From: SAR202 cluster bacterium
GTDB lineage: Bacteria > Chloroflexota > Dehalococcoidia > Lucifugimonadales > UBA826
Assembly: GCA_009392815.1 (NCBI GenBank)
Contig: VFFS01000038.1
Location: 1-33,707, forward strand
Length of the DNA stretch: 33,707 nucleotides
Direction of reading: 5' to 3'
The translations under genes and the position numbers were made by a program. Under the pieces are notes generated by a model. The model worked only from the letters and a program-made list of their open reading frames with translations, made no database searches and was not told the DNA's origin. Positions 10,346-24,541 of the stretch are shown here, in pieces; position 1 is the first letter of the stretch; every line of letters starts with the position of its first letter.

Positions 10346-11809
10346 TCAATCGGTACTAGGGGTACTATTGAAAACCTTGGCCCCTATCGACCTAATCATC
10401 CCTTTAAATATAAATGCGTGAAGCGGGAGTAGAGAGTACCAATATAAATAGCCAGTAAAGGAATTAGAGTAAAAAGATGCAGTCTGCCATATCCTTGTCG
10501 TAGTCGGTCGTGTTTCAACTTCAAATTTGAGTGTGGCTTCACCAGGAAGTTTCATTTCCGCTAGAAATGTGACCATTCTATTTTCTGCTGTGTCTATTAT
10601 TCTCCACCAATCGAGAGTGTCTCCAATTATAAATTTGTCCTTCTCTAATCTTGATCGTCGCATTCCAACCCCACCGACCAAAAGATCAAACCACCCCCTG
10701 ATACGCCACAATATATTTGCAAAATACCACCCGTTACAGCCGCCGATTTCATTTATGGGCTTGATTGCCTCTAAGGCATTACTATCAACATCGATAAATC
10801 TTGTGTCCTCAAATTTATATTTGAAATCTGAGAGATTTATGCTTCCAAAGCCAACTCCCTTTGGTGTTTTGCTAGCGGAAGAATTTGCATCAAACCAGCG
10901 TGAAACGGGACCAGTTTCTGAGTCTTCTAATACATGTTGAATAGCTTTTTTATATGTGACCGGAGTGATTGGAAACATTTCCATCCCGCTTCTTTCCGTC
11001 ACAACACTGTCGGTTGTCAAACTGTTGATCAATTTTCTTCCCGCTCTCGCATATACAGGTGTTACCAGACCTAGCCATAGACTGGATAAGTGTGGAGTTA
11101 AAACGGGGACAGATATCATGGCGCGCTTTATTCCACGTTGGTGACCGTATTCTTTCATAAGGTCCTTGTACGATACTTTGTCAGGGCCCCCTATTTGAAT
11201 AATTTTGCTCCCATTGAAGTGGGAATCGGCGGACATAGATAGATAATCGACCACATCCTCGATCCAGATAGGTTGAGCAAGTGAAGAGACCCACTTCGGC
11301 GTAATCATAGCGGGGAGCCTTTCAACCAAGCTCTTCATAATTTCGTAGGACAAACCACCCTTACCGATAATAATCGAGGCTTGGAATTCAATGCATTCGA
11401 CAGAAGAGGATCTAAGTAGCTCTCCCACCCTTAGACGGCTGGATAAATGTTTGGAAAGTTTACCAGTTTGTGTTGTTAAACCACCGAGGTAAATAATCCT
11501 TTTAACACCGCTATTTGTAGCTTCATTCAAAAAGTTTCTAGCACAGGTAATTTCATCCTCATCAAAGTCATTGTCAGAGGCCAAAGAATGTACCAAATAA
11601 AAGGCTGTATCTATATTTTGTAATTTTTTTGAGACAGTCTCTGACCTTAATAAATTACACTCCCCTATATCTATTCCTTTACCATGAAAACGTTGCTTAA
11701 ATGCGACTTTATCCCTTACCAAACATCTGAGTTTGTGGGGACCAACCGACATTTTTTCCGTCAGGCGGGAACCTATATAACCAGAAGCCCCTGTTATTGC
11801 TATATTCAT
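10346..11809 (-). CDS. NAD(P)-binding SDR with C-terminal DUF2867
   Basis: 487 residues in two parts. Residues 1 to about 300 are an atypical SDR with the Rossmann motif GASGYIGSRL (7-16) and AFYLVHSLASDNDFDEDE. Residues from about 330 to 480 are DUF2867, recognised by GWYFANILWRIRGWFDLLVGG, a DTLDWWRI segment and the end YWYSLLPLHAFIFKGMIRSI. This fusion is widespread and is often linked with light- or lipid-related clusters; its reaction is unknown. The ATG at 11809 has an AAGGAC about 8 nt upstream. It is the last gene of the DICT unit, 90 nt after the DICT-USP gene. Transcription may stop in the 86 nt that separate it from the DUF35 gene, though no clear terminator is visible. Confidence 0.9.
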   Translation of the reverse strand: MNIAITGASGYIGSRLTEKMSVGPHKLRCLVRDKVAFKQRFHGKGIDIGECNLLRSETVSKKLQNIDTAFYLVHSLASDNDFDEDEITCARNFLNEATNSGVKRIIYLGGLTTQTGKLSKHLSSRLRVGELLRSSSVECIEFQASIIIGKGGLSYEIMKSLVERLPAMITPKWVSSLAQPIWIEDVVDYLSMSADSHFNGSKIIQIGGPDKVSYKDLMKEYGHQRGIKRAMISVPVLTPHLSSLWLGLVTPVYARAGRKLINSLTTDSVVTERSGMEMFPITPVTYKKAIQHVLEDSETGPVSRWFDANSSASKTPKGVGFGSINLSDFKYKFEDTRFIDVDSNALEAIKPINEIGGCNGWYFANILWRIRGWFDLLVGGVGMRRSRLEKDKFIIGDTLDWWRIIDTAENRMVTFLAEMKLPGEATLKFEVETRPTTTRIWQTASFYSNSFTGYLYWYSLLPLHAFIFKGMIRSIGAKVFNSTPSTD

Positions 11810-11899
11810 GTAGAGTCCTTAGTTTCAGATGTGATGGGATACAAATTTTTCCAAAACATCAGAACTATTGTAGGGTGCAAAGTCATCATTTTCATTCGC

Positions 11900-13000
11900 T
11901 TACACATGTGCCTGTCTGAAATATCCGTCATCGGTTGAAACCATTAGTTGGGGCGTATTAGTGTTTTTGATCTGACCAAGGGTATTTCCTACAATTCTGT
12001 CCACAAGGCTCGGGAATTCGTAATATTGGGGGACTATTACCACGTCAGCCTTTTCTCTATTTGCAATTTCGCCTATGGCCTGAAATCCGTGTTTCCCGGC
12101 GAGCAAGGCGCTGGCATGTAGGCCCTCGTTTTTGAACTCTGCTAACTGTTGACTTAGATGAGACCTTCCGAGTGTATTCACTTCATCTCCAGACAAATTG
12201 ATCTCAGTCCAGGTAGTCCCTGGAGGACCTGGATTTACAAAATAAGAAGCCGCTGAAATATCGTATAAGATAGCCTCTGCTTGGAGAGATTTACAAAGAG
12301 ATATTGATGATTTTAGCGATTCTTCTGTTCCTGGAGAAAGTTTATCGGAAGGTTTATCTTGAGTTATTACCATAACTTTCTTTACCTTGCTCTCAAGTGT
12401 CCTAGATAATGTCTCCACGCTTAATGGTTGCAACTCCTTATTTAGACTTACTGAGTCTAAATGCGAGATAAGAGACTTGATTACGCGCTCATCTGATGAC
12501 ACAAACCCTTCAAACATTTTCTCGGGATCAGACAATTTTCCCTGGCCGAATATTTCTTCTGATATCTCCCAGCCTATAAAAGCGATCGGGGTGGGACTTT
12601 CGCTTACTAAAAACCATTGATTTTCAACATTGGATACTGAGAGATCCAGAGATGTCCAATTGTTTACTACAGACAGTTGATGTGGTGTTGGTTCACCGAC
12701 TCCATAAGCGTGGATCTTTGTACCGCTATTTTTAAGTTGCTGATATCTTTTTAGCTCGCTATCTACTTTATCAACTCTTTGGAAACCTACATATAGGGTG
12801 GGGTTTTGAGACGAACGCGAAAGTTCGTCTTCTATCTGCCGAGTTATTTCAAGCATTTTCGAAGAGCCATGCAAGAATTCGAAACCTTCTATGGGAAGCC
12901 CATTTTCTCTAAGGCTATTGTCCATGCGGAGGACGAACTCTCTTACAGGGCTACCCATAGTGTTGGTGCCCGAAGAGCTTAATTTCCAGTTAAAATTCAT
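11900..13000 (-). CDS. DICT sensory domain fused to universal-stress-like domain
   Basis: 366 residues. About 45-180 match a DICT domain: LYVGFQRVDK, LKRYQQLKNSGTKIHAYGVG, QWFLVSESPTPIAFIGWE, the GQGKLSDPEKMFEGFVSSD block, then ERVIKSLISHL. DICT was defined in diguanylate cyclases and two-component proteins and has been proposed to work in light responses. About 206-356 (KKVMVITQDKP to TPQLMV) read as a UspA-like Rossmann domain with the typical VDRIVGNTLGQI near the end, although the nucleotide-binding glycine motif is incomplete. There is no output domain such as HTH, GGDEF or kinase, so it may act by protein contact. The ATG at 13000 has a GAAAGG SD and overlaps the end of the preceding gene by 11 nt, implying coupled translation. 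I am fairly sure of DICT and less sure of the C-terminal half. Confidence 0.8.
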   Translation of the reverse strand: MNFNWKLSSSGTNTMGSPVREFVLRMDNSLRENGLPIEGFEFLHGSSKMLEITRQIEDELSRSSQNPTLYVGFQRVDKVDSELKRYQQLKNSGTKIHAYGVGEPTPHQLSVVNNWTSLDLSVSNVENQWFLVSESPTPIAFIGWEISEEIFGQGKLSDPEKMFEGFVSSDERVIKSLISHLDSVSLNKELQPLSVETLSRTLESKVKKVMVITQDKPSDKLSPGTEESLKSSISLCKSLQAEAILYDISAASYFVNPGPPGTTWTEINLSGDEVNTLGRSHLSQQLAEFKNEGLHASALLAGKHGFQAIGEIANREKADVVIVPQYYEFPSLVDRIVGNTLGQIKNTNTPQLMVSTDDGYFRQAHV

Positions 13001-14892: not shown

Positions 14893-15672
14893 CTATCGAT
14901 TAATTTCGATGTTGTTTTGCTTCGATCTGGTTGAAGAATGCTCATTTGATTTTTTAATCTTTAACGCCAATAGGCTCAGTCCTACTGCTCCAATAGCTAC
15001 TAATATTACAGACAAAGGGACGAATAATTGGTGGTTCCACAGGTTCGTATTCCCATTTTGATCATTGTCGTGGAATTTTCGTACTTCCAATATTGTTGAC
15101 GGTAATCTAGCTATATCGGACACCCCAAATCGCTCTTCTTTACCTATTGCTACCCATAGTTTTCCCGTGTTGTCTTCTAAATCCAGACTTACTAGATGAT
15201 GCAGGCCTGTTTCAGAGATAGAAATTTCTTTTTTAGTCAGAATCCAAGAATTAGTATCTGTAAATGGTTCGTGAAAGGGGGTTAGTTTTGCTCCATTAGT
15301 GATGATATGTGAGTCTATTAGCTCAATCGGAGATTGATTGCTTTCACTGGGTTTAATCAGAACTATTGTTGGTCGAAAATTCCTAACCTGTTCCAGGGCA
15401 GGTAGTCCAATTTCCAAATTCAGAATTTGCCCTGGCTCGGCTTCGAATGCAATCCAAGATTGGTCAGATGTTTCATTCAATACTTGGTATATGACTTTCG
15501 ATATTTGTATGTCGCTCAGCCTCAGAGCGTTATCGAGTGTCTTGTTTTTATCGAGAGCTAGATATGGGACGTGTGATTCAACAACGCCAACGTGGACCAA
15601 CGGGATCACAACGAGACAAAAAAAAATAATTTTCAATAGCCATAAATTTTTAAACTTTGTTAGAGCTGTCAT
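14893..15672 (-). CDS. Membrane-anchored ectodomain protein, unknown function
   Basis: 259 residues. An N-terminal hydrophobic segment (about 9-31, LWLLKIIFFCLVVIPLVHVG) is a signal peptide or anchor, and a second one (about 221-241, LFVPLSVILVAIGAVGLSLL) precedes a basic C-terminal tail. The ~190 residues between are predicted to be extracytoplasmic and beta-rich. QSWIAFEAEPGQILNLEIGLP recalls bacterial pre-peptidase-type beta-sandwiches, and FHEPFTDTNSWILTK and KLWVAIGKEERFG look like conserved blocks. I do not know the family name. It overlaps DUF1365 by ATGA and is followed at once by the SDR, so it belongs to the lipid unit. It may be an envelope-side partner, but that is a guess. Confidence 0.8.
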   Translation of the reverse strand: MTALTKFKNLWLLKIIFFCLVVIPLVHVGVVESHVPYLALDKNKTLDNALRLSDIQISKVIYQVLNETSDQSWIAFEAEPGQILNLEIGLPALEQVRNFRPTIVLIKPSESNQSPIELIDSHIITNGAKLTPFHEPFTDTNSWILTKKEISISETGLHHLVSLDLEDNTGKLWVAIGKEERFGVSDIARLPSTILEVRKFHDNDQNGNTNLWNHQLFVPLSVILVAIGAVGLSLLALKIKKSNEHSSTRSKQNNIEINR

Positions 15673-16487
15673 ACAAATGGGAACTTTATCTTGGATATAA
15701 AGCCTTTAGCTGGAGATATATGACTATCTTTCGCTGGTACGGGTTTTTTATAAAAATCTATTTTCTTTTTGAAGAAAAGTACGCGAGCGATTTTCAGTAT
15801 TCTTAACTCAGTAAATAACACAGTTGTGACTAATTTTGGCAACATCTTAAGAAGTGATGACTTTTGCATTGGCGTTAGATTGCCAGAGAATTCAGTTGTT
15901 ATCAATGGCAGACCATGTTGGTGCAATTTGATGTGAATTTCGACACTGTTTTCTGAAAATGAAAACTTAAATGTATATTCACCTTTCCTGGATATGAAGG
16001 GTGATACATGGAATCGTTTGGATGAAAAATACTCCTTATTTTCGTGGTCGAACGATTGGTCGTCGAGGTAGTAGATATGTGATTCTCCGAAGGTGTTATG
16101 GACTTCGACTGCGACGTCACGAATTTTATTGTCGGTGTGAAAACGAAAGTAAAAGGTTGCAGGGTTAAAAGAGTATCGAAAAATACTTGGAGTGGTAAGG
16201 ACATAAATATTATCTTTTTCGGTGATGTCTGCAAAATATTTTGATAATTTAGATCCAAGACTTTTGCAGGATTCATCGATGTAATCAGAGCTTTGAATTT
16301 TTAATAAACCATTGCCGTTGTATGACATCGGCCAGATGTCCAGCGCACCCTTTTCCAGCTGATTCAGATTGAGAAAAAGCATGGTGTGTTTAAATCGGAA
16401 AGAATGGAGTGTAGGGGCCACTCTACTGTGTACGAGATATCCTGAAGCTATAAATGACTTATTCAGACGGTCCTCGGCTTGTCTCAA
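15669..16487 (-). CDS. DUF1365 family protein
   Basis: 272 residues. Family landmarks are LVHSRVAPTLHSFRFKHTML near the N-terminus, FRYSFNPATFYFRFH in the middle, VAVEVHNTFGESHIYYL, and the SKRFHVSPF block. DUF1365 proteins are nearly always encoded next to an FAD amine-oxidase-like protein and a CFA-type methyltransferase, as here, and are presumed to work on phospholipid acyl chains; no activity is firmly assigned. The TTG at 16487 overlaps the amine-oxidase gene by 29 nt. No good SD is visible, so the exact start is uncertain and could be a few codons later. It overlaps the next gene by ATGA. Confidence 0.9.
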   Translation of the reverse strand: MRQAEDRLNKSFIASGYLVHSRVAPTLHSFRFKHTMLFLNLNQLEKGALDIWPMSYNGNGLLKIQSSDYIDESCKSLGSKLSKYFADITEKDNIYVLTTPSIFRYSFNPATFYFRFHTDNKIRDVAVEVHNTFGESHIYYLDDQSFDHENKEYFSSKRFHVSPFISRKGEYTFKFSFSENSVEIHIKLHQHGLPLITTEFSGNLTPMQKSSLLKMLPKLVTTVLFTELRILKIARVLFFKKKIDFYKKPVPAKDSHISPAKGFISKIKFPFV

Positions 16488-17727
16488 ATTTTATCAAGTC
16501 TGAAACTTCCTTTCCGGATTTATAACCATCTTCATGAAATCCATACCCTGTGTATGCTCCGCAGAATTTTATTCTTCCTGATTTGTTGAGCATGGGAATA
16601 ATTTTTGATTTTGATTGCTCCGTATGTGACAGAACAGGATGGGTAAAACTTGTTTCATACAGAATGTTAGATGGATTCGGAGGTTCTTCAGGACTTACAG
16701 TGACTAGAAATTTTGTGTTTGATTCTATGGATTGGAGTAAATTCATGTTGTAGGTCGTATAGGTGTGGTCGGTGGAGTTGCTGGTTTCTGTTCTTATTAC
16801 ATTCCATGAAGCCCACATCTTTTTATCAATTGGCATAAACGATAAGTCGGTGTGGAGATATATTTTATTTGGAGAATATCTAACTGACCTTAATATACTG
16901 GACTTTTGGTTCGATAGGTTCTCTACAATATTTAAAGCTTGGTCGGCGTGAGTCGCTATGACGGCGTAATCATAATTTGCTGAAATTCCTTTTTTTGTCA
17001 TTACACACACACTATTTTTTGTTTCTGTGACTTTTGTGACTTCTTCTCCTGTTTTTATTAAGCCTTGAAAATAATTTTCAAAGGCATTCAGGTATGTAAC
17101 ACTTCCTTCTTTAATGGAGTACCATATCGGTCGATTCGTAAGTTGAAGAAGGCCGTGGTTATCAAAAAAAGTTGCGTATGTGCTAACAGGTATTTTTTCT
17201 ACCTCAGTTTTGTCACAGGACCATATGGCTGAGGTAATTGGTTTGAAGTAGTTTTCGATTACTTCCTTAGGACATCCCGACTCTCTTAGAAAGTCAATTA
17301 CGGAATAATCTTCATCTAAAGACGACAGGTGTATTTGTCTGAGCTTCCTAGAATATTTATATATATTGATAAGAGTTTTTAAACTATTAAAGTTCCAGCT
17401 AATCAAAGTAGAACTCAATCCCTTTAACGTTCCTGCATAGGCTATTTTCTTCGAATAGTCAGTGAAAGAAAATGACATGGAAGTTTTCTGACTCTCAACT
17501 TTCAATTCTGTTAGAAATTTTGAAAAATGAGGATAATTTCTGTCATTAAACACAATAAATCCAGTATCTACATTCCACACTAAACCTAGTTCATCCTCAA
17601 CGGATACGGTGTTAGTATGCCCCCCTATGTGAGAGCTTGACTCGTAGATAACGATTTCATGCTCCGCATCTAAATTGTATGCGGCAGAGATGCCTGAAAT
17701 GCCAGAACCTATTATCGCGACTTTCAA
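16459..17727 (-). CDS. FAD-dependent amine-oxidase-like protein (COG2907 type; possible acyl-chain desaturase)
   Basis: 422 residues. The FAD-binding motif is at the very start (VAIIGSGISGISAAYNL, GxGxxG), followed by YESSSHIGGHTNTV and DTGFIVFNDRNYPHFSKFL, both diagnostic of the COG2907 group. The C-terminal FCGAYTGYGFHEDGYKSG closes the FAD domain. In Rhodobacter a flavoprotein of the amine-oxidase type is, as I recall, the UfaD desaturase of furan fatty acid synthesis, acting on methylated acyl chains of phospholipids. The same step is possible here, since CFA-type proteins and DUF1365 are adjacent. The TTG start overlaps the stop of the preceding methyltransferase (TTGA), so translation is coupled. 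The family is certain; the reaction is inferred. Confidence 0.9.
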   Translation of the reverse strand: MKVAIIGSGISGISAAYNLDAEHEIVIYESSSHIGGHTNTVSVEDELGLVWNVDTGFIVFNDRNYPHFSKFLTELKVESQKTSMSFSFTDYSKKIAYAGTLKGLSSTLISWNFNSLKTLINIYKYSRKLRQIHLSSLDEDYSVIDFLRESGCPKEVIENYFKPITSAIWSCDKTEVEKIPVSTYATFFDNHGLLQLTNRPIWYSIKEGSVTYLNAFENYFQGLIKTGEEVTKVTETKNSVCVMTKKGISANYDYAVIATHADQALNIVENLSNQKSSILRSVRYSPNKIYLHTDLSFMPIDKKMWASWNVIRTETSNSTDHTYTTYNMNLLQSIESNTKFLVTVSPEEPPNPSNILYETSFTHPVLSHTEQSKSKIIPMLNKSGRIKFCGAYTGYGFHEDGYKSGKEVSDLIKFETSRGPSE

Positions 17728-18744: not shown

Positions 18745-19938
18745 CTAACGCTTCCTATATGAAATTTGCAAAGTATTGATATGCTCGGAGCGAAAAGCTC
18801 CTTCACAGTAACTGAAGTAATAAAAGAATTTTCGGAAGTCACGTTCCTCGAATCCTAGTTGCTCAATTTTCGGCCAGTTGGATTTAAGCTTATCTCTCCA
18901 AATTGCAAGTGTTTTTGAATAGTGGTGGCCAATTTTTTCACTACGGTAAATTTCGAAACTATGTTTATTAGCTGAATCATTTAGTATTTTTGGGGAAAGT
19001 AATAGCCCTCCAGGAAAAATATATTTTTGTATGTAGTCACAATTTTTTCTATAGGTATCGTACCGATCATCCGGCACAACGATTACTTGTATTTGTAAAG
19101 AACCACCAGAATCTAGGAGAGTGGAACATTTTTTGAAGAATGTATCGACACCATTGTGTCCAACAGCCTCAAGCATTTCCACTGAAAATATATGATCAAA
19201 CTTGCCTTCTATAACTCTGTAGTCCTTATGTTTTAAGTCAATGACAGTTTGCAAGTCGTTTTCTTTAATCCTCTCATTGAATGATTCAAATTGATTCTTA
19301 GATAAAGTGACTGCGGATACATTTAAAGAGTGGATAGTTGCGGCGTTAAGTGCCAAACTGCCCCACCCACATCCAATATCAAGTATTGATTGCCCGGGCC
19401 TGGTATTGGCAGCATTAATTAGACGGTTTATTTTTGTTTGCTGAGCCACATGTAAAGAGGTCTGGTTATCTTCAAAAACTGCACAAGAATATGTCATGGA
19501 GTTGTCCAAAAAGCCCTGGAAGAAATCATTGCTCAAGTCATAGTGATCGCTAATGTTTTTTTTCGCCCTTTTTAAAGAGTTTTTTGACTTTATATATTGG
19601 GTTATTCGGGCGGCGATTTTAGCGGGTGCATATACCCCAATTGAGTTAGCTAAACCGTGGGAAGGTTGGGTGGAGAGATGTTGAAATAATTTCGGTAGAT
19701 TATCGTGATCCCATGTTCCGTTTAGGTATCCTTCAGCGAACCCGAGGTCGTATCCTGACACCAGATCCCAGAAAAATCTCCAGTCTTTTATGACAATTGG
19801 TTCAACATCATTTTTTTTACCTCTATTTAAATCATATGTTTTTCCGTCGGGAGTAATTATGCTTATGCCTGACTGGGCAAAGCTTTTTATAATTGGCTTT
19901 GACATGGCATGACCCGCTAGATTCATTAAAGAATCCAT
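18745..19938 (-). CDS. cfa: Cyclopropane-fatty-acyl-phospholipid synthase family methyltransferase
   Basis: 397 residues, close to the 382 of Escherichia coli Cfa. An N-terminal lipid-binding domain (FAEGYLNGTWD at about 67-77) is followed by ISDHYDLSNDFFQGFLD, the active-site region SMTYSCAVF with Cys152, the SAM motif LDIGCGWGSLA (186-196), VEMLEAVGH, IQKYIFPGG and HYSKTLAIWRDKL, and the YYFSYCEGAFRS end. It transfers a methylene or methyl group from SAM to the double bond of a membrane phospholipid acyl chain. Whether the product is a cyclopropane or a methyl-branched alkene (as for UfaM) cannot be told. It follows the diiron desaturase gene by 3 nt, which fits a desaturate-then-methylate order. 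Confidence 0.92.
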   Translation of the reverse strand: MDSLMNLAGHAMSKPIIKSFAQSGISIITPDGKTYDLNRGKKNDVEPIVIKDWRFFWDLVSGYDLGFAEGYLNGTWDHDNLPKLFQHLSTQPSHGLANSIGVYAPAKIAARITQYIKSKNSLKRAKKNISDHYDLSNDFFQGFLDNSMTYSCAVFEDNQTSLHVAQQTKINRLINAANTRPGQSILDIGCGWGSLALNAATIHSLNVSAVTLSKNQFESFNERIKENDLQTVIDLKHKDYRVIEGKFDHIFSVEMLEAVGHNGVDTFFKKCSTLLDSGGSLQIQVIVVPDDRYDTYRKNCDYIQKYIFPGGLLLSPKILNDSANKHSFEIYRSEKIGHHYSKTLAIWRDKLKSNWPKIEQLGFEERDFRKFFYYFSYCEGAFRSEHINTLQISYRKR

Positions 19939-19941
19939 GGC

Positions 19942-21027
19942 TCAAGATAACCCCAAAGGGCCTACTGGGGACTCTGGTTTTTTAAGAAATCCCTCAATAT
20001 CGAGTTTTGCGTACACGTATCGTTTCAACGATTTACGTAAATAAAAATGTACTTTTTCCAAAAGATTCATCGGGACCTCTTTTTCATTGGCTGTCAGTCC
20101 AAGCTGTTCCAACATAGCCTCACCAACTATTCCGTGACTAGCTGGAAAAGTGTTTAAAGCTTTTTTTACCAGCGTATTGGGCACCTGATCTATAAATTTG
20201 CGTTCACTTGCTGTTGCATATTCTATGAGTAGTTTTCCTAGATTCCTGTTGTCATCCAAAGCCATATTTAAGTTCGCAACTATTCTTCTCAGAAGTTCTA
20301 TTACTGACCCGTTCATTTTGGGTATCCACTCCTGGGTTTTACTCTCTATATCCGACACATTTGGAATGTGATTTGATGGCATCTGGAATGAAGTTGAAGC
20401 ATTTATTATCTCTGTTAAAAGTGAGGGGTCTGCTTCTAATTGCAGTGCAGTAAGGTTACGAAACTGCACCGTATGTAGAGCTTCTCTTCCTTTAACTTTG
20501 CTGATCACTTTCGATGTGTTGCTATTGGCAGGGAAAAATCCCCTTTGCAGCTCATACCAATAATCAGTTATGCATTCCTGAATCATTCCGTATGTTGTCA
20601 GAGCTATTGGATGAAATCCGGATGCATGCTTTGTCTCGTACTCCACCCCCTGCTTTGCTTCATCTATGTCCACACGTAAGTCCGTTTCATTTATGCCGAA
20701 GTCTACCAATATATTTTTGAACGGGTCAGCATGTCCATATTCGTCTGGCTCCCAGAAACCTAGTACGTAATCTTGTAACCATTGGGCACCATACATGCGT
20801 GCTCCAATTTGAAAAGTTTTTGAGTATTGATCTGTTAGTGACTCAGTTATCAATGATAGTCTGAAGCTATCAATCAAATCATCAGCGGTCATGCCACTTT
20901 GTACTATTAGATCTTCGGGTGAAAATGACTCAAACATTGATTCGAGATCTTTTGAATTTACCGTTTTGAGTTTGGGGATTTGCTCCTGAACGTAGGAATC
21001 AATAACGAGATTGGTTTTAGATTTCAT
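19942..21027 (-). CDS. Acyl-ACP-desaturase-like diiron protein
   Basis: 361 residues, helical throughout. A complete set of candidate diiron ligands is present in the spacing of soluble acyl-ACP desaturases: Glu62, Glu96 with His99 (DEYGH), Glu151, and Glu182 with His185 (EALH). The surrounding FWEPDEYGHAD and GMIQECITDYWYELQRGFF segments agree with that family (plant stearoyl-ACP desaturase, mycobacterial DesA). It probably introduces a cis double bond into an acyl chain using O2 and ferredoxin; the electron donor is not encoded here. A non-desaturase diiron oxygenase of the same fold is possible. The gene precedes cfa by 3 nt, so the alkene it makes may be the substrate of the methyltransferase. 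The ATG at 21027 has only a weak SD. Confidence 0.82.
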   Translation of the reverse strand: MKSKTNLVIDSYVQEQIPKLKTVNSKDLESMFESFSPEDLIVQSGMTADDLIDSFRLSLITESLTDQYSKTFQIGARMYGAQWLQDYVLGFWEPDEYGHADPFKNILVDFGINETDLRVDIDEAKQGVEYETKHASGFHPIALTTYGMIQECITDYWYELQRGFFPANSNTSKVISKVKGREALHTVQFRNLTALQLEADPSLLTEIINASTSFQMPSNHIPNVSDIESKTQEWIPKMNGSVIELLRRIVANLNMALDDNRNLGKLLIEYATASERKFIDQVPNTLVKKALNTFPASHGIVGEAMLEQLGLTANEKEVPMNLLEKVHFYLRKSLKRYVYAKLDIEGFLKKPESPVGPLGLS

Positions 21028-21065: not shown

Positions 21066-21482
21066 TTATTTTTCTTTTGTGACCGGCCATATGTACGGCA
21101 AATTATCGGGAACATGCCACTCATACTGGGAGTAAAATTCAAAATCCTTTCGAAGAAGATTGGATCTATGAGACTCATGGAATTTTTCCCCACCTATGAA
21201 TGGAGGAACTTTGTATATTGCGCTATGTTCTGTGAGTTCCATAGTGTTATTGAAGCCACGGTCTACCCACTCTAGAATCATTGAGTTTTGGTAGGCTGCA
21301 AGAGCGTCGGGAAAGCCTTTCCACATTAGGACTGCTGGATGTGTCAGCCATCCCCCGTTTTTGCGTTCTCCTGATATTATTCGCCGAATTTGATAAGCCT
21401 CCACCCGTTGTTTTCCCAGGCGTTTGTTATCCAGGCACTTAGCCGTTTCTGTGAAATTACTATAGGGAAGAAAAGTTTGCAT
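21066..21482 (-). CDS. MSMEG_6728 family protein (pyrimidine dimer DNA glycosylase-like)
   Basis: 138 residues. The N-terminus MQTFLPYSNFTETAKCLDNK, then RLGKQRVEAYQI, GWLTHPAVLMWKG, and the C-terminal FHESHRSNLLRKDFEFY and LPYIWP blocks are those of the MSMEG_6728 family, annotated as related to the T4 endonuclease V (Pyr_excise) fold. T4 endonuclease V removes UV-induced cyclobutane dimers using its N-terminal Thr; after Met removal this protein would begin with Gln, so the chemistry may differ. It stands between the five-helix membrane protein (14 nt) and the desaturase gene (38 nt). Its place inside a lipid unit next to a light-sensor gene fits a UV-protection regulon. Confidence 0.88.
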   Translation of the reverse strand: MQTFLPYSNFTETAKCLDNKRLGKQRVEAYQIRRIISGERKNGGWLTHPAVLMWKGFPDALAAYQNSMILEWVDRGFNNTMELTEHSAIYKVPPFIGGEKFHESHRSNLLRKDFEFYSQYEWHVPDNLPYIWPVTKEK

Positions 21483-21496
21483 TTTATTACTCTTTA

Positions 21497-22033
21497 TTAC
21501 TTATGAAATAAAATCACCCATATCACCGCGTCAAAAACAAGGCAATGGAACGTTATTGATGCCAAGCCTGCTATAGCGAGATATTTTGTTACCACTCCAA
21601 TAGAATCGATATCTGCTGAGGCTGATATGTAAAGTAGAGCTAAAAGAGCCAAGGCAGTAACCCAAAGCGAAGCAATGGAAACAATCCACCAAATGGAGTT
21701 TTGAGTCTTCAAATAATAAATAGTGGATGGCATCCACAACGCTGCGGATGTTAAGAATATGGCAACCAACATCACTACAGTGTAAGATCCGAGGTTGCTG
21801 ACTTCATTAAAGTTGACTAAACCATCCCTAAACAAGCTGACATAGCAAAACAGTAGGTACCCTAGAGCTGAAAATAACATTGACACCGTGAGAATGGTGC
21901 GAAGAGCACCGTGAACTCCACCCCATAACGCTTCTCGATACTCGGAAAACGACGTTATTCCCCAATAATAACCTCCCAATACAGCTAATCCGCCGAGTAT
22001 ATTCGACAATACAAATAAGGTTTGCGTGCTCAT
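21497..22033 (-). CDS. Integral membrane protein, about five TM helices, unknown
   Basis: 178 residues. Hydrophobic segments lie at about 6-24, 45-68, 83-103, 113-137 and 148-175, with short loops; SFSEYREALWGGVHGALRT and NFNEVSNLGSY are the polar loops. No known family is recognised. It is the first gene of the long minus-strand unit: its ATG at 22033 lies about 34 nt downstream of the start point predicted from the TTGTTT/TATTAT promoter, and an AGGGG is 12 nt upstream of the ATG, which is a long spacing. The next gene follows after 14 nt. It could be a membrane sensor, transporter or quinone-type partner of the lipid enzymes; nothing in the sequence decides this. Confidence 0.78.
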   Translation of the reverse strand: MSTQTLFVLSNILGGLAVLGGYYWGITSFSEYREALWGGVHGALRTILTVSMLFSALGYLLFCYVSLFRDGLVNFNEVSNLGSYTVVMLVAIFLTSAALWMPSTIYYLKTQNSIWWIVSIASLWVTALALLALLYISASADIDSIGVVTKYLAIAGLASITFHCLVFDAVIWVILFHK

Positions 22034-22065
22034 GTTTGTTCTTAACCCCTACCAATTAATTTCAA

Positions 22066-22083
22066 CATGTACTATAATACATG
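22066..22083. promoter_or_regulatory. Operator candidate: near-perfect 18-bp dyad between divergent units
   Basis: CATGTACTATAATACATG has two perfect 6-bp arms (CATGTA/TACATG) around a 6-bp centre, with 8 of 9 base pairs symmetric. It contains the minus-strand -10 (TATTAT) and a plus-strand TATAAT. It is located in the only divergent gap next to the gene for an XRE-type DNA-binding protein, so it is the natural binding site for that protein or another dimeric repressor. No second full copy was found in this window. Binding is inference. Confidence 0.6.
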
Positions 22084-22102
22084 CAAATGGTTTCAAAAAC
22101 AA
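22074..22102 (-). promoter_or_regulatory. Sigma-70-type promoter of the nine-gene minus-strand unit
   Basis: Reading the minus strand, TTGTTT (22097-22102) and TATTAT (22074-22079) are spaced by exactly 17 bp. Transcription would begin near 22067, giving a leader of about 34 nt before the ATG at 22033. The -10 lies inside the 18-bp dyad, so a protein bound there would block RNA polymerase. Confidence 0.55.
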
Positions 22103-22119
22103 TTACTTAAATAAAATGA

Positions 22120-22197
22120 TGGCTCATAGTTGGGGCGTTTCTACCGCGGGTGCCCATAAGACTTCTATAGGTTTAATGAAGATTTAGTCATGAGCCA
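22120..22197 (+). promoter_or_regulatory. Possible structured leader of the TIGR01777 gene
   Basis: TGGCTCAT (22120-22127) and ATGAGCCA (22190-22197) are perfect 8-nt complements enclosing 62 nt. Inside, TGGG/CCCA (22131-22134/22153-22156) and CTTC/GAAG (22162-22165/22178-22181) could pair, giving a three-way-junction shape. The Shine-Dalgarno of the next gene follows immediately. An 8-bp pairing can arise by chance in a region this size, and I cannot match it to a known riboswitch. Confidence 0.25.
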
Positions 22198-22212
22198 CGG
22201 AGATAAGGAAAA

Positions 22213-23646
22213 ATGAAAATATTGATGGTTGGAGCAACAGGATTCATTGGTAAAGCAACTGTTGCTTTTCTTCAAGGGAAAAACCATGAGGTTTCAGCAT
22301 GGGTGAGAAACACGGATAAGGCTATTGATATGCTCGGTGATGGGGTTAGGCTCATATCATCTGTTAAAAATCCCAGAGATTTGAAACAGTATCTTGAGGA
22401 AACTGATGTAGTAATAAATTTAGCGGGACGCCCCCTGGCAGGAGTACGTTGGACAGATAAGAGGAAACTGGAATTTTATGAAAGTCGAGTAGTTGTCACC
22501 AATTTAATATCAGAATCTATAGCGATGTGTGAAAATCCACCCAAGATTTTCATTTCGGCTAGCGCCGTTGGAGTATATGGAAACAGCGGAGCTGCAGCTA
22601 TTGATGAAGAAAGTGCTGTCGGCCAAGATTATTTGTCTCAACTATCTGTAGAGTGGGAAATGGCTGCTAATCGGGCTACTGAATCAGGGGTTCGAGTTTG
22701 TAACATAAGGATCGGAGTTGTTTTGGGAAGGGAAGGTGGCATGTTGCAACAGTTAATTCAAAGTTTTGATTTTGGTGTTGGTAGCTATTTGGGGGACGGG
22801 AAACAGAAAGTTCCATGGATACATCTCATTGATGTTGTCAGGGCCATAAATTTTTGTATAGATAATGAGGAATTAAATGGTCCTGTTAATCTTACGGCCC
22901 CTCATGCGACTAGTGGTAAGGAATTTGCCAAAAATTTGGCTTCATTAACCAATGCATTCATCGTTATACCGATGCCTAAGTTCGTCCTGAAATTGATTTT
23001 TGGAGAGGGTGAAGTAGTTCTGACGAACAGCCAAAATCCGTTGCCGGCGAAACTTCTGGAGTCTGGATTCAGGTTTGAATATGATGTTCTTAGATCAGCT
23101 CTGGAAGCCGAAATACATCCTGAAAAAATTGTAGTTAGTAAAGCAGGACTACCTGCCGAAAGTCCCGTCCATTCTTCTAAGCCCCAATATGAACTAAAAA
23201 CTTCTGTTTCACTGAAATGTGATCATGAAAAGGCTTTCAATTTTTTCTCATCCCCTTTAAATCTTGGATTAACTACCCCCTCTTGGCTAAATTTTAAAAT
23301 TACTGACATGCCTTTGTCCGTTTCGAAAGATTGTGAAATCGCCTACGAAATTCGGCTATGGTTCTTTCCAATCAAGTGGAGGACCAAAATTCTTGAGTGG
23401 AATCCCCATGAATCCTTTATCGACATGCAAAAAGAAGGTCCATATAGGTTATGGGTTCATAGCCATTTTGTAGAATCTACCTCAAGAAATACATCGTTAA
23501 TGACAGATATAGTTCGGTACAGTGTTCCAGGAGGCTTTTTGGGTAGGCTGGCACATTACTTGTTTATAAAAAAATCGCTAACAAGAATTTTTGGTTATCG
23601 GAGAAATATGATTCGTATGAGACTTGGGTTTGTAACGAGCGATTAG
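22213..23646 (+). CDS. TIGR01777 SDR-type epimerase fused to SRPBCC domain
   Basis: 477 residues in two domains. Residues 1 to about 300 are a TIGR01777 (YfcH-like) atypical SDR: MVGATGFIGKATVAFL, VINLAGRPLAGVRWTDKRK, ISASAVGVYG, RIGVVLGREGGML and VPWIHLIDVV. Residues about 325-470 are a START/SRPBCC lipid-binding-type domain (YELKTSVSLKCDHEKAFNFF, then RTKILEWNPHESFIDMQKEG and the VPGGFLGRLAHYLF end). The same fusion occurs in other bacteria, often with photolyase or light-inducible genes. The reaction is unknown; a hydrophobic ligand is likely. The ATG at 22213 has an AAGGAAAA SD. The gene ends just before the B12-photoreceptor gene, whose SD is separate, and both are downstream of the shared divergent region. 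Confidence 0.9.
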   Translation: MKILMVGATGFIGKATVAFLQGKNHEVSAWVRNTDKAIDMLGDGVRLISSVKNPRDLKQYLEETDVVINLAGRPLAGVRWTDKRKLEFYESRVVVTNLISESIAMCENPPKIFISASAVGVYGNSGAAAIDEESAVGQDYLSQLSVEWEMAANRATESGVRVCNIRIGVVLGREGGMLQQLIQSFDFGVGSYLGDGKQKVPWIHLIDVVRAINFCIDNEELNGPVNLTAPHATSGKEFAKNLASLTNAFIVIPMPKFVLKLIFGEGEVVLTNSQNPLPAKLLESGFRFEYDVLRSALEAEIHPEKIVVSKAGLPAESPVHSSKPQYELKTSVSLKCDHEKAFNFFSSPLNLGLTTPSWLNFKITDMPLSVSKDCEIAYEIRLWFFPIKWRTKILEWNPHESFIDMQKEGPYRLWVHSHFVESTSRNTSLMTDIVRYSVPGGFLGRLAHYLFIKKSLTRIFGYRRNMIRMRLGFVTSD

Positions 23647-23656
23647 TTTGTCCAAT

Positions 23657-23671: not shown

Positions 23672-24541
23672 GTGACCAACCATTTAGTTGAAAAGTTGAC
23701 TGAAACCTTGCTTGCTGGAGACGCTTCGGAGAGTGAATTGGTCCTACAGGAAGCTTATCTAAATAAATTTTCTGCTTTGGACATTTACCAGAGCATATTT
23801 GTTAAAGCTATGAATAGAATTGGCATGCTTTGGCATACTGGTGAGATAACGATTGCTCATGAACACAGGGCCAGTGAGATAGTAATGGGTCTCACCGATA
23901 AAGTGGCTGACAATACGCCGCATCTTTCAATAAACGGGTTTTCTGCCCTAGTTGCTTGCGTTGAAGATGAAAATCATGTTCTCGGAGCCAAACTATTTTC
24001 TAGCATTTTGGAAATTAATGGTTGGGTAGTACATTATTTGGGATCTTCAATGCCAGCAGTGGACCTGAAAAGCTTTTCAGAAGAAACAGCCCCTGACGCC
24101 ATCATCCTAACCGCAACATCAACTGATAGGACAGCGAGAGTCTATGAAGCTCTAGATTTACTAAGTGATCTAAATAATGACCCAGTTATTCTTCTAGGGG
24201 GTTCAGGTGTTTCTGAGGAGAAGTTTAGTGACCAGTTAGTGGCTCAAGACTTATCCTCGGGATTAGATTTGCTGGAAAAAAACTTGAACATCGGCACAGA
24301 TCTTCATGGATTGGAACAGGTTTTAATCGGGATCGGAAATAATATACAGAACTTACGTAAGGCAAGAGGAATGAATCAGGGTCAACTTGCAGACATTGCA
24401 GGAGTTGATAGGGCTTATATAAGTTTGGTAGAAAATGGGAAACAGAACTTAACGCTTGGAGCTCTGGTTAAACTGTCTGAGTCTCTTAGTGTTCCAGTGT
24501 CGGCTCTGGTCCCTACCTCAACTAGGGGTATTACAAAATAG
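23672..24541 (+). CDS. CarH-like B12-binding photoreceptor with C-terminal XRE helix-turn-helix
   Basis: 289 residues. Residues about 1-80 form the four-helix cap, with LWHTGEITIAHEHRAS carrying Trp54, His55, Glu64 and His65 in the spacing of the Thermus CarH Trp131/His132/Glu141/His142 set. Residues about 88-205 are the Rossmann B12-binding domain, with His102 in ENHVLG (the lower cobalt ligand, ExHxxG) and HYLGSSMP. Residues about 222-280 are an XRE/HTH_3 domain (LRKARGMNQGQLADIAGVDR, YISLVENGKQNLTLGALVKL). CarH and LitR normally carry an N-terminal MerR HTH, so the output domain and its position are exchanged. CarH binds DNA as an adenosylcobalamin tetramer in the dark and falls apart in light. 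By analogy this protein would repress the divergent units in the dark. Methionine-synthase-like or corrinoid-enzyme roles are unlikely given the HTH. Confidence 0.9.
   Translation: MTNHLVEKLTETLLAGDASESELVLQEAYLNKFSALDIYQSIFVKAMNRIGMLWHTGEITIAHEHRASEIVMGLTDKVADNTPHLSINGFSALVACVEDENHVLGAKLFSSILEINGWVVHYLGSSMPAVDLKSFSEETAPDAIILTATSTDRTARVYEALDLLSDLNNDPVILLGGSGVSEEKFSDQLVAQDLSSGLDLLEKNLNIGTDLHGLEQVLIGIGNNIQNLRKARGMNQGQLADIAGVDRAYISLVENGKQNLTLGALVKLSESLSVPVSALVPTSTRGITK

Follow-up and report, generated by a model that had tools for sequence, protein, structure and literature searches.

The closest described systems are the light-sensing regulators of the CarH/LitR type, in which a module of cap and Rossmann domain accommodates adenosylcobalamin (AdoCbl). 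In TtCarH, H132 forms the bis-His light state, and recent work found it to be required for dissociation of the tetramer (PMC10442372). The published signature of light-type cobalamin domains reads GxxW-EH-GxxH-GxxxP (Yu et al. 2024; PMC11796333). That study, which surveyed 1561 sequences bearing the signature, reports that such domains are fused, at the N- or the C-terminus, to helix-turn-helix (HTH) domains and to domains of other kinds. The bare architecture class is therefore already known; XRE is not named in the text considered here. The initial annotation of the DNA analysed in this work, which knew of no characterised example, thus has to yield with respect to the architecture class and holds with respect to the XRE version: searches of the open-licence literature brought up no paper in which this version, or the clade, regulon or operator belonging to it, is named.

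Cultured SAR202 strains are inhibited by light, which has been called unexplained, with heliorhodopsin being proposed as a possible regulator; cobalamin, B12 or a photoreceptor are not mentioned in the text of that report (PMC10444878). The stretch of DNA studied here (33,707 nucleotides, referred to as the window) stems from a SAR202 cluster bacterium and encodes a protein that combines a cobalamin domain with a C-terminal XRE domain (CBD-XRE).

Domains and residues of the regulator

The gene and its parts are located as follows (positions in the window):

23672–24541, + strand: CBD-XRE regulator gene, 289 aa, GTG start
23687–23887, + strand: B12-binding_2 four-helix cap, residues 6–72 (Pfam, E 4.7e-14; AF2 helices 2–80)
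23831–23836 and 23861–23866, + strand: cap residues W54-H55 and E64-H65
23945–24214, + strand: B12-binding Rossmann domain, residues 92–181 (Pfam, E 4.5e-11; fold matches)
23975–23977, + strand: cobalt ligand H102, inside the Rossmann domain like G124xxxP128
24344–24502, + strand: C-terminal HTH_3 / Cro-C1 domain, residues 225–277 (Pfam, E 4.3e-12; PDB sequence matches to C.BclI and C.AhdI)

An open reading frame check placed the GTG at 23672 and the stop at 24541, with the stop of the upstream SDR gene 25 bp before the start; translation might alternatively begin at a TTG at 23648. All three domains exceed the curated Pfam cut-offs, and the HTH_3 domain, with 46.3 bits against a cut-off of 23, belongs to the XRE (Cro/C1) family. 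A MerR domain is absent, the only DNA-binding part given by Pfam being of the HTH_3 type at residues 222–277. The order of B12-binding_2, B12-binding and HTH_3 bears out the initial annotation, which had placed an XRE HTH at the opposite end of the protein. The best NCBIfam match is the CarH equivalog, though with 72.7 bits against a cut-off of 400, and since a MerR domain is missing as well, the regulator is not a CarH/LitR protein by membership.

The residues known to matter for light sensing in CarH, which the initial annotation had considered kept, were all found (W54, H55, E64-H65 and H102) and are near-invariant in relatives. The cap carries GxxW and Wx9EH within GMLWHTGEITIAHEH (residues 51–65), invariant in the family alignment, the GxxxP element is present as G124-SSM-P128, and the cobalt-ligand stretch reads E100-N-H102-V-L-G105. 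The GxxH element takes the form D99-E-N-H102, such that the histidine is kept and the glycine is replaced by aspartate. This glycine is retained in 32 of 42 non-redundant relatives, Asp99 being a feature of the window's genus, and a strict signature filter would consequently miss the window's protein, though not most of its relatives. In an alignment of 32 sequences, G51, W54, E64, H65, H102, G117, W118, P128 and the XRE core are invariant. The column of H55, which follows the tryptophan and corresponds to TtCarH H132, is occupied by histidine in 35 of 42 distinct proteins.

The AF2 model calculated from the 32-row alignment has a mean pLDDT of 91, and a linker of lower confidence (approximately residues 201–220) joins the cobalamin module to the HTH. 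The nearest solved folds are those of photocobilin (Z 28), CtMerR (Z 25) and TtCarH (Z 21); MetH is also matched with a Z of 23.7, and the fold alone can therefore not tell light sensors from methyltransferase caps. A PduO-type cobalamin adenosyltransferase that could supply AdoCbl is encoded in the window's genome.

Phylogenetic place and distribution

A tree was calculated for 71 cobalamin domains, including that of a corrinoid protein (L092) from the window's own genome. Corrinoid and MetH proteins split from all Wx9EH domains with a support of 100/100, and Wx9EH is absent from every corrinoid/MetH row compared. A corrinoid methyltransferase or MetH-like cap, which had been named beforehand as the finding that would speak against a CarH-like sensor, was rejected on these two grounds. 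All XRE-fused cobalamin domains form one clade (94/95), the sister of which is MerR-type CarH including TtCarH (96/88; for MerR-CarH, 100/99 was also given). In an earlier tree without Chloroflexota MerR-type rows the XRE clade reached only 70/94, so that support for the sister relation comes from the larger sample, which consists mostly of Chloroflexota sequences. The description of the protein as a CarH-like sensor thus has to be refined: it groups with the light-sensing cobalamin domains, as sister to the MerR-CarH clade and not inside it. Judged by sequence, the regulator is built on the same light-sensor module as CarH.

The full-length CBD-XRE architecture is present in 20 of 60 related genomes and in 12 of 400 genomes sampled from the phylum. 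It occurs at 27 named loci, every one from Chloroflexota (SAR202, other Dehalococcoidia and two Caldilineaceae MAGs), and one of its carriers is the cultured Ca. Lucifugimonas marina JH1073. Among the sequences searched, it was found only in Chloroflexota. Its recurrence in the 20 genomes and at the 27 loci means that the regulator is no chance fusion. A gene-fusion artefact or assembly join was rejected because the architecture is intact in dozens of loci, an origin from phages because matches in phages and viral contigs cover the XRE domain only, and spread by plasmids because no plasmid record spans 80% of the protein.

Gene neighbourhood and predicted operator

The following features of the window surround the regulator gene:

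11900–13000, − strand: DICT-domain protein; a homologue adjoins photolyase in two relatives (L031, L161)
15669–16487, − strand: DUF1365 protein (PF07103, E 5.1e-52), UfaO-like by family only
16459–17727, − strand: FAD amine-oxidase/phytoene-desaturase-like protein (PF01593), UfaD-like by family only (UfaD described in PMC7380195)
17724–18740, − strand: CFA/UfaM-like SAM methyltransferase 2 (PF02353, E 1.7e-37)
18745–19938, − strand: CFA/UfaM-like SAM methyltransferase 1 (PF02353, E 4e-81)
19942–21027, − strand: conserved orphan protein of the cluster, without family match
21066–21482, − strand: pyrimidine-dimer DNA glycosylase, T4 endonuclease V type (Pfam PF03013, E 4.7e-23)
21497–22033, − strand: conserved membrane protein; its gene opens the divergent cluster
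22034–22212, no strand: divergent promoter region separating the lipid cluster (−) from the SDR and regulator genes (+), from sequence
22068–22081, no strand: dyad TGTACTATAATACA with a TATAAT-like core, proposed as operator and conserved in position within the family
22088–22101, no strand: weak second dyad TGGTTTCAAAAACA, with a mismatch, exactly 20 bp on
22213–23646, + strand: TIGR01777 SDR (ThyD/YfcH-like) with C-terminal extension, upstream of the regulator on the same strand

The layout in the family is that of an SDR gene followed by the regulator gene, both facing a divergent cluster for a membrane protein, the orphan protein, two CFA-family methyltransferases, an FAD amine-oxidase-like protein and a DUF1365 protein; the TIGR01777 SDR is present in all ten family loci that have this neighbourhood in whole or in part. 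In Rhodobacter, furan fatty acids are made by UfaM (a methyltransferase), UfaD (a flavin desaturase resembling phytoene desaturase) and UfaO (which carries DUF1365), with raised levels of them in a chrR mutant (PMC7380195). As genes of the UfaM, UfaD and UfaO families are united in the divergent cluster, it plausibly makes furan fatty acids, an assignment by family only. The orphan protein is the most conserved neighbour from the lipid cluster (41–88% identity across the family) and has no match in Pfam, NCBIfam or PDB; a WEPDEYGH stretch in it is at most reminiscent of di-iron desaturases.

In a distant relative (L031), the regulator gene resides beside genes for a DICT protein and photolyase, and in Ca. 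Lucifugimonas (L045) beside those for photolyase, GTP cyclohydrolase I (folE) and an SRPBCC-like protein. In both of these relatives (L031, 6369–7114; L045, 9320–9941, − strand), the regulator is separated from the photolyase group by a small zinc-ribbon-like ORF and the gene of a small, DUF378-like membrane protein. Within the window (10346–13000, − strand), the DICT-domain protein adjoins an SDR/DUF2867 protein, and homologues of both flank photolyase in L031.

Photolyase is encoded in 11 of 20 regulator-positive genomes versus 1 of 40 negative ones (Fisher p 5e-6, kinship ignored). Counted by family outside the window's own, the numbers are 6/9 positive versus 0/~31 negative. The sole photolyase-bearing negative genome (G008) has the cluster together with the dyad on a contig that breaks off short of the position of the regulator. 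Photolyase was not found in the window's own genome, which is 88% complete. In one MAG of the family, a MerR protein in which Pfam detects no B12 domain is encoded on the same short contig as photolyase (L153, 428–1399, − strand; G013:C212), and contamination is possible in this case. The light-inducible regulon of Pseudomonas LitR comprises phrB, an SDR gene, an FAD oxidoreductase gene, ufaM and folE, i.e., the same kinds of genes as the CBD-XRE neighbourhoods (PMC9758184). The TtCarH gene itself adjoins phr, a phytoene/squalene synthase gene and uvsE. The gene context, as assigned from sequence, fits defence against light and photo-oxidation.

The proposed operator is a dyad of the type TGT-N8-ACA, which recurs with at most one mismatch in the cluster promoter of nine of ten family loci. 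The exact pattern of the first dyad occurs once in the window and at two places in the window's genome. A search of 16 family genomes with TGTNYTATARTACA gave 14 places, ten of them in this promoter, and the reversed control gave two matches. The only other place in the window's genus is upstream of an ABC (MacB/FtsX) operon (G000:C33:401, G001:C17:11637). Homologues of this ABC pair are encoded directly downstream of the regulator in a distant relative (G047, locus L043; 58% and 34% identity end to end), which together with the dyads at the ABC operon provides an independent link between regulator and site. The operon (L146, G000:C33, 441–4558) is preceded by two tandem TGT-N8-ACA dyads 20 bp apart (381–414) in the window's genus only, the ABC-operon dyads not being kept in other genera of the family. 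Strong TGT-N8-ACA pairs 20 bp apart exist in L023, L028 and both ABC promoters. Two of the 14 places are near the start of an apparent purD gene (G002 and G009; L139/L149 and L143/L150), where the dyad would not be expected to have a role.

When the family's 14-bp site was scored on the upstream regions of distant relatives, no clear matches were obtained. Upstream of distant regulators the longer dyad TGT-N12-ACA is the commonest (13 of 20 regions, those of the family included), in an exploratory comparison in which 200 shuffled sets yielded at most 12 regions for any dyad. Pairs of this dyad are spaced by 32 bp in 5 of 15 regions and by 31 bp in two more; in shuffled sequences the mean of the maxima was 0.36 and none of 500 shuffles reached five. 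Across 19 full distant loci, all pairs with 31–33 bp spacing lie just upstream of the regulator except one in L031, which precedes the DUF378-DICT-photolyase group, and genome-wide in 14 genomes the exact TGT-N12-ACA pair occurs at five places, three of them just upstream of the regulator. The spacing of the pairs varies by lineage (20, 26 or 31–33 bp). A spacing of 20 bp comes close to two helical turns and one of about 32 bp to three, which would be expected of two HTH dimers that belong to the same multimer and contact the DNA on the same face.

A sigma-70 scan detected no −35/−10 pair at the dyad in the window, and an Rfam search returned no match of any kind, hence no cobalamin riboswitch. 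The half-site is short (TGT/ACA), and conservation of a −10 box alone may explain part of the centre of the operator. That the tandem TGT..ACA dyads are the operator of the regulator is nevertheless a strong prediction.

Mode of action and comparison with known systems

We consider it probable, at roughly 70%, that the regulator is a light-released transcriptional repressor that works like CarH and is built differently. In the dark, its 205-residue module of cap and Rossmann domain would bind AdoCbl, with H102 as the lower ligand and the adenosyl group packed against W54 and E64-H65, and would multimerise. The multimer would gather the C-terminal Cro/C1 HTHs into two dimers that occupy a tandem pair of dyads from the same side of the DNA, and the bound dyads would cover the −10 region of the divergent promoter, such that the putative furan-fatty-acid/UV-repair cluster and the regulator's own operon would both be repressed. 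Green, blue or UV light would cleave the Co–C bond, H55 could take the upper face like H132 in TtCarH, and the broken multimer would fall apart and allow expression of both operons. Cofactor binding, light effect, oligomer formation, DNA binding and repression are what we infer beyond architecture, residues, phylogenetic place, context and dyads. The replacement of the GxxH glycine by D99 in the window's genus and the failure to find photolyase in the window's own genome count against a light-released repressor, and so may the record title of the nearest named relative, 'OGT_505m', if it denotes a sample from 505 m, where light is scarce.

A regulator that senses the level of AdoCbl as a metabolite, with light being incidental, could make do with an identical cofactor pocket, and in one genome a CobA/BtuR adenosyltransferase is encoded about 3 kb from the regulator gene (G054:C1:1724336-1728380). 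With this one exception, however, gene calls at the inspected loci revealed no recognisable genes for B12 biosynthesis or transport beside the regulator, its neighbours being genes for photo-oxidation and UV repair; photolyase co-occurs and the bis-His residue is largely retained (35/42), all of which makes a metabolite sensor unlikely. It is a little less probable still that the cobalamin domain acts as a B12-independent structural multimeriser and that the signal comes from a partner, e.g., a rhodopsin, a LOV protein or an antirepressor. CarA of Myxococcus, a CarH paralogue with canonical B12 motif, represses without B12, and residues alone therefore do not prove B12 dependence. Class II LitR is the effector of a LOV photoreceptor (PMC9758184), SAR202 isolates possess heliorhodopsins (PMC10444878), and the D99 change in the window's genus would also agree with a structural role. 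On the other hand, the pocket residues are near-invariant across the phylum, which would be needless in a dead pocket, although CarA too keeps the canonical motif. That the regulator is a light-responsive activator is the least probable of these alternatives: some Cro/C1 proteins activate and the dyads were located relative to start codons, upstream of which they lie, but the strongest dyad holds a TATAAT-like hexamer, tandem sites sit at the regulator's own promoter, as is usual for autorepression, and CarH is a precedent for a repressor.

Returning to the light-released repressor, we see slightly better than even odds that CBD-XRE proteins constitute a second, independently wired family of B12-dependent light repressors, in which a cobalamin multimer and Cro/C1 dimers on tandem palindromes in helical phase govern the photo-oxidative defence of SAR202 and other Chloroflexota, and that the multimer broken up by light serves as a module for dimeric HTH output in general. 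If so, B12 light sensing would work with two DNA-binding domains that are unrelated and sit at opposite ends of the sensor, and with two operator grammars. The way in which a cobalamin multimer places its DNA-binding domains could then readily be studied by comparison, and a new optogenetic part would be at hand. The CBD-XRE gene is also a testable candidate for the light sensitivity of SAR202; Ca. Lucifugimonas marina JH1073 has it beside the genes for photolyase and GTP cyclohydrolase I.

With TtCarH and the CarH/LitR proteins (PDB 5C8D/5C8E), the regulator shares the AdoCbl cap and Rossmann module, the equivalents of W131, H132, E141, H142 and H177, the position in a sister clade and the photoprotection neighbours; it differs by a C-terminal Cro/C1 HTH in place of the N-terminal MerR domain. 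CarH operators consist of 11-bp direct repeats (nAnnTnnACAn; PMC8156234), unlike the predicted tandem dyads, which agrees with the different operator type proposed in the initial annotation. CtMerR (8JBS/8JBT) and the light-type cobalamin domains compiled by Yu et al. (2024) have the GxxW, EH and GxxxP elements in common with the regulator (PMC11796333). Photocobilins (8J2W, 8J2Y) exhibit the closest fold (VIA-align Z 28) and share the Wx9EH cap. They possess a bilin-binding globin-like domain, for which the regulator has no room, since the cobalamin module (residues 1–207) and the HTH (214–277) fill its 289 residues, and its output is DNA binding. C.BclI and C.AhdI, controllers of restriction-modification systems and the best PDB sequence matches of the HTH (E 5e-8), have no sensor domain and serve another function than the regulator; controller proteins of their type bind tandem dyads as pairs of dimers.
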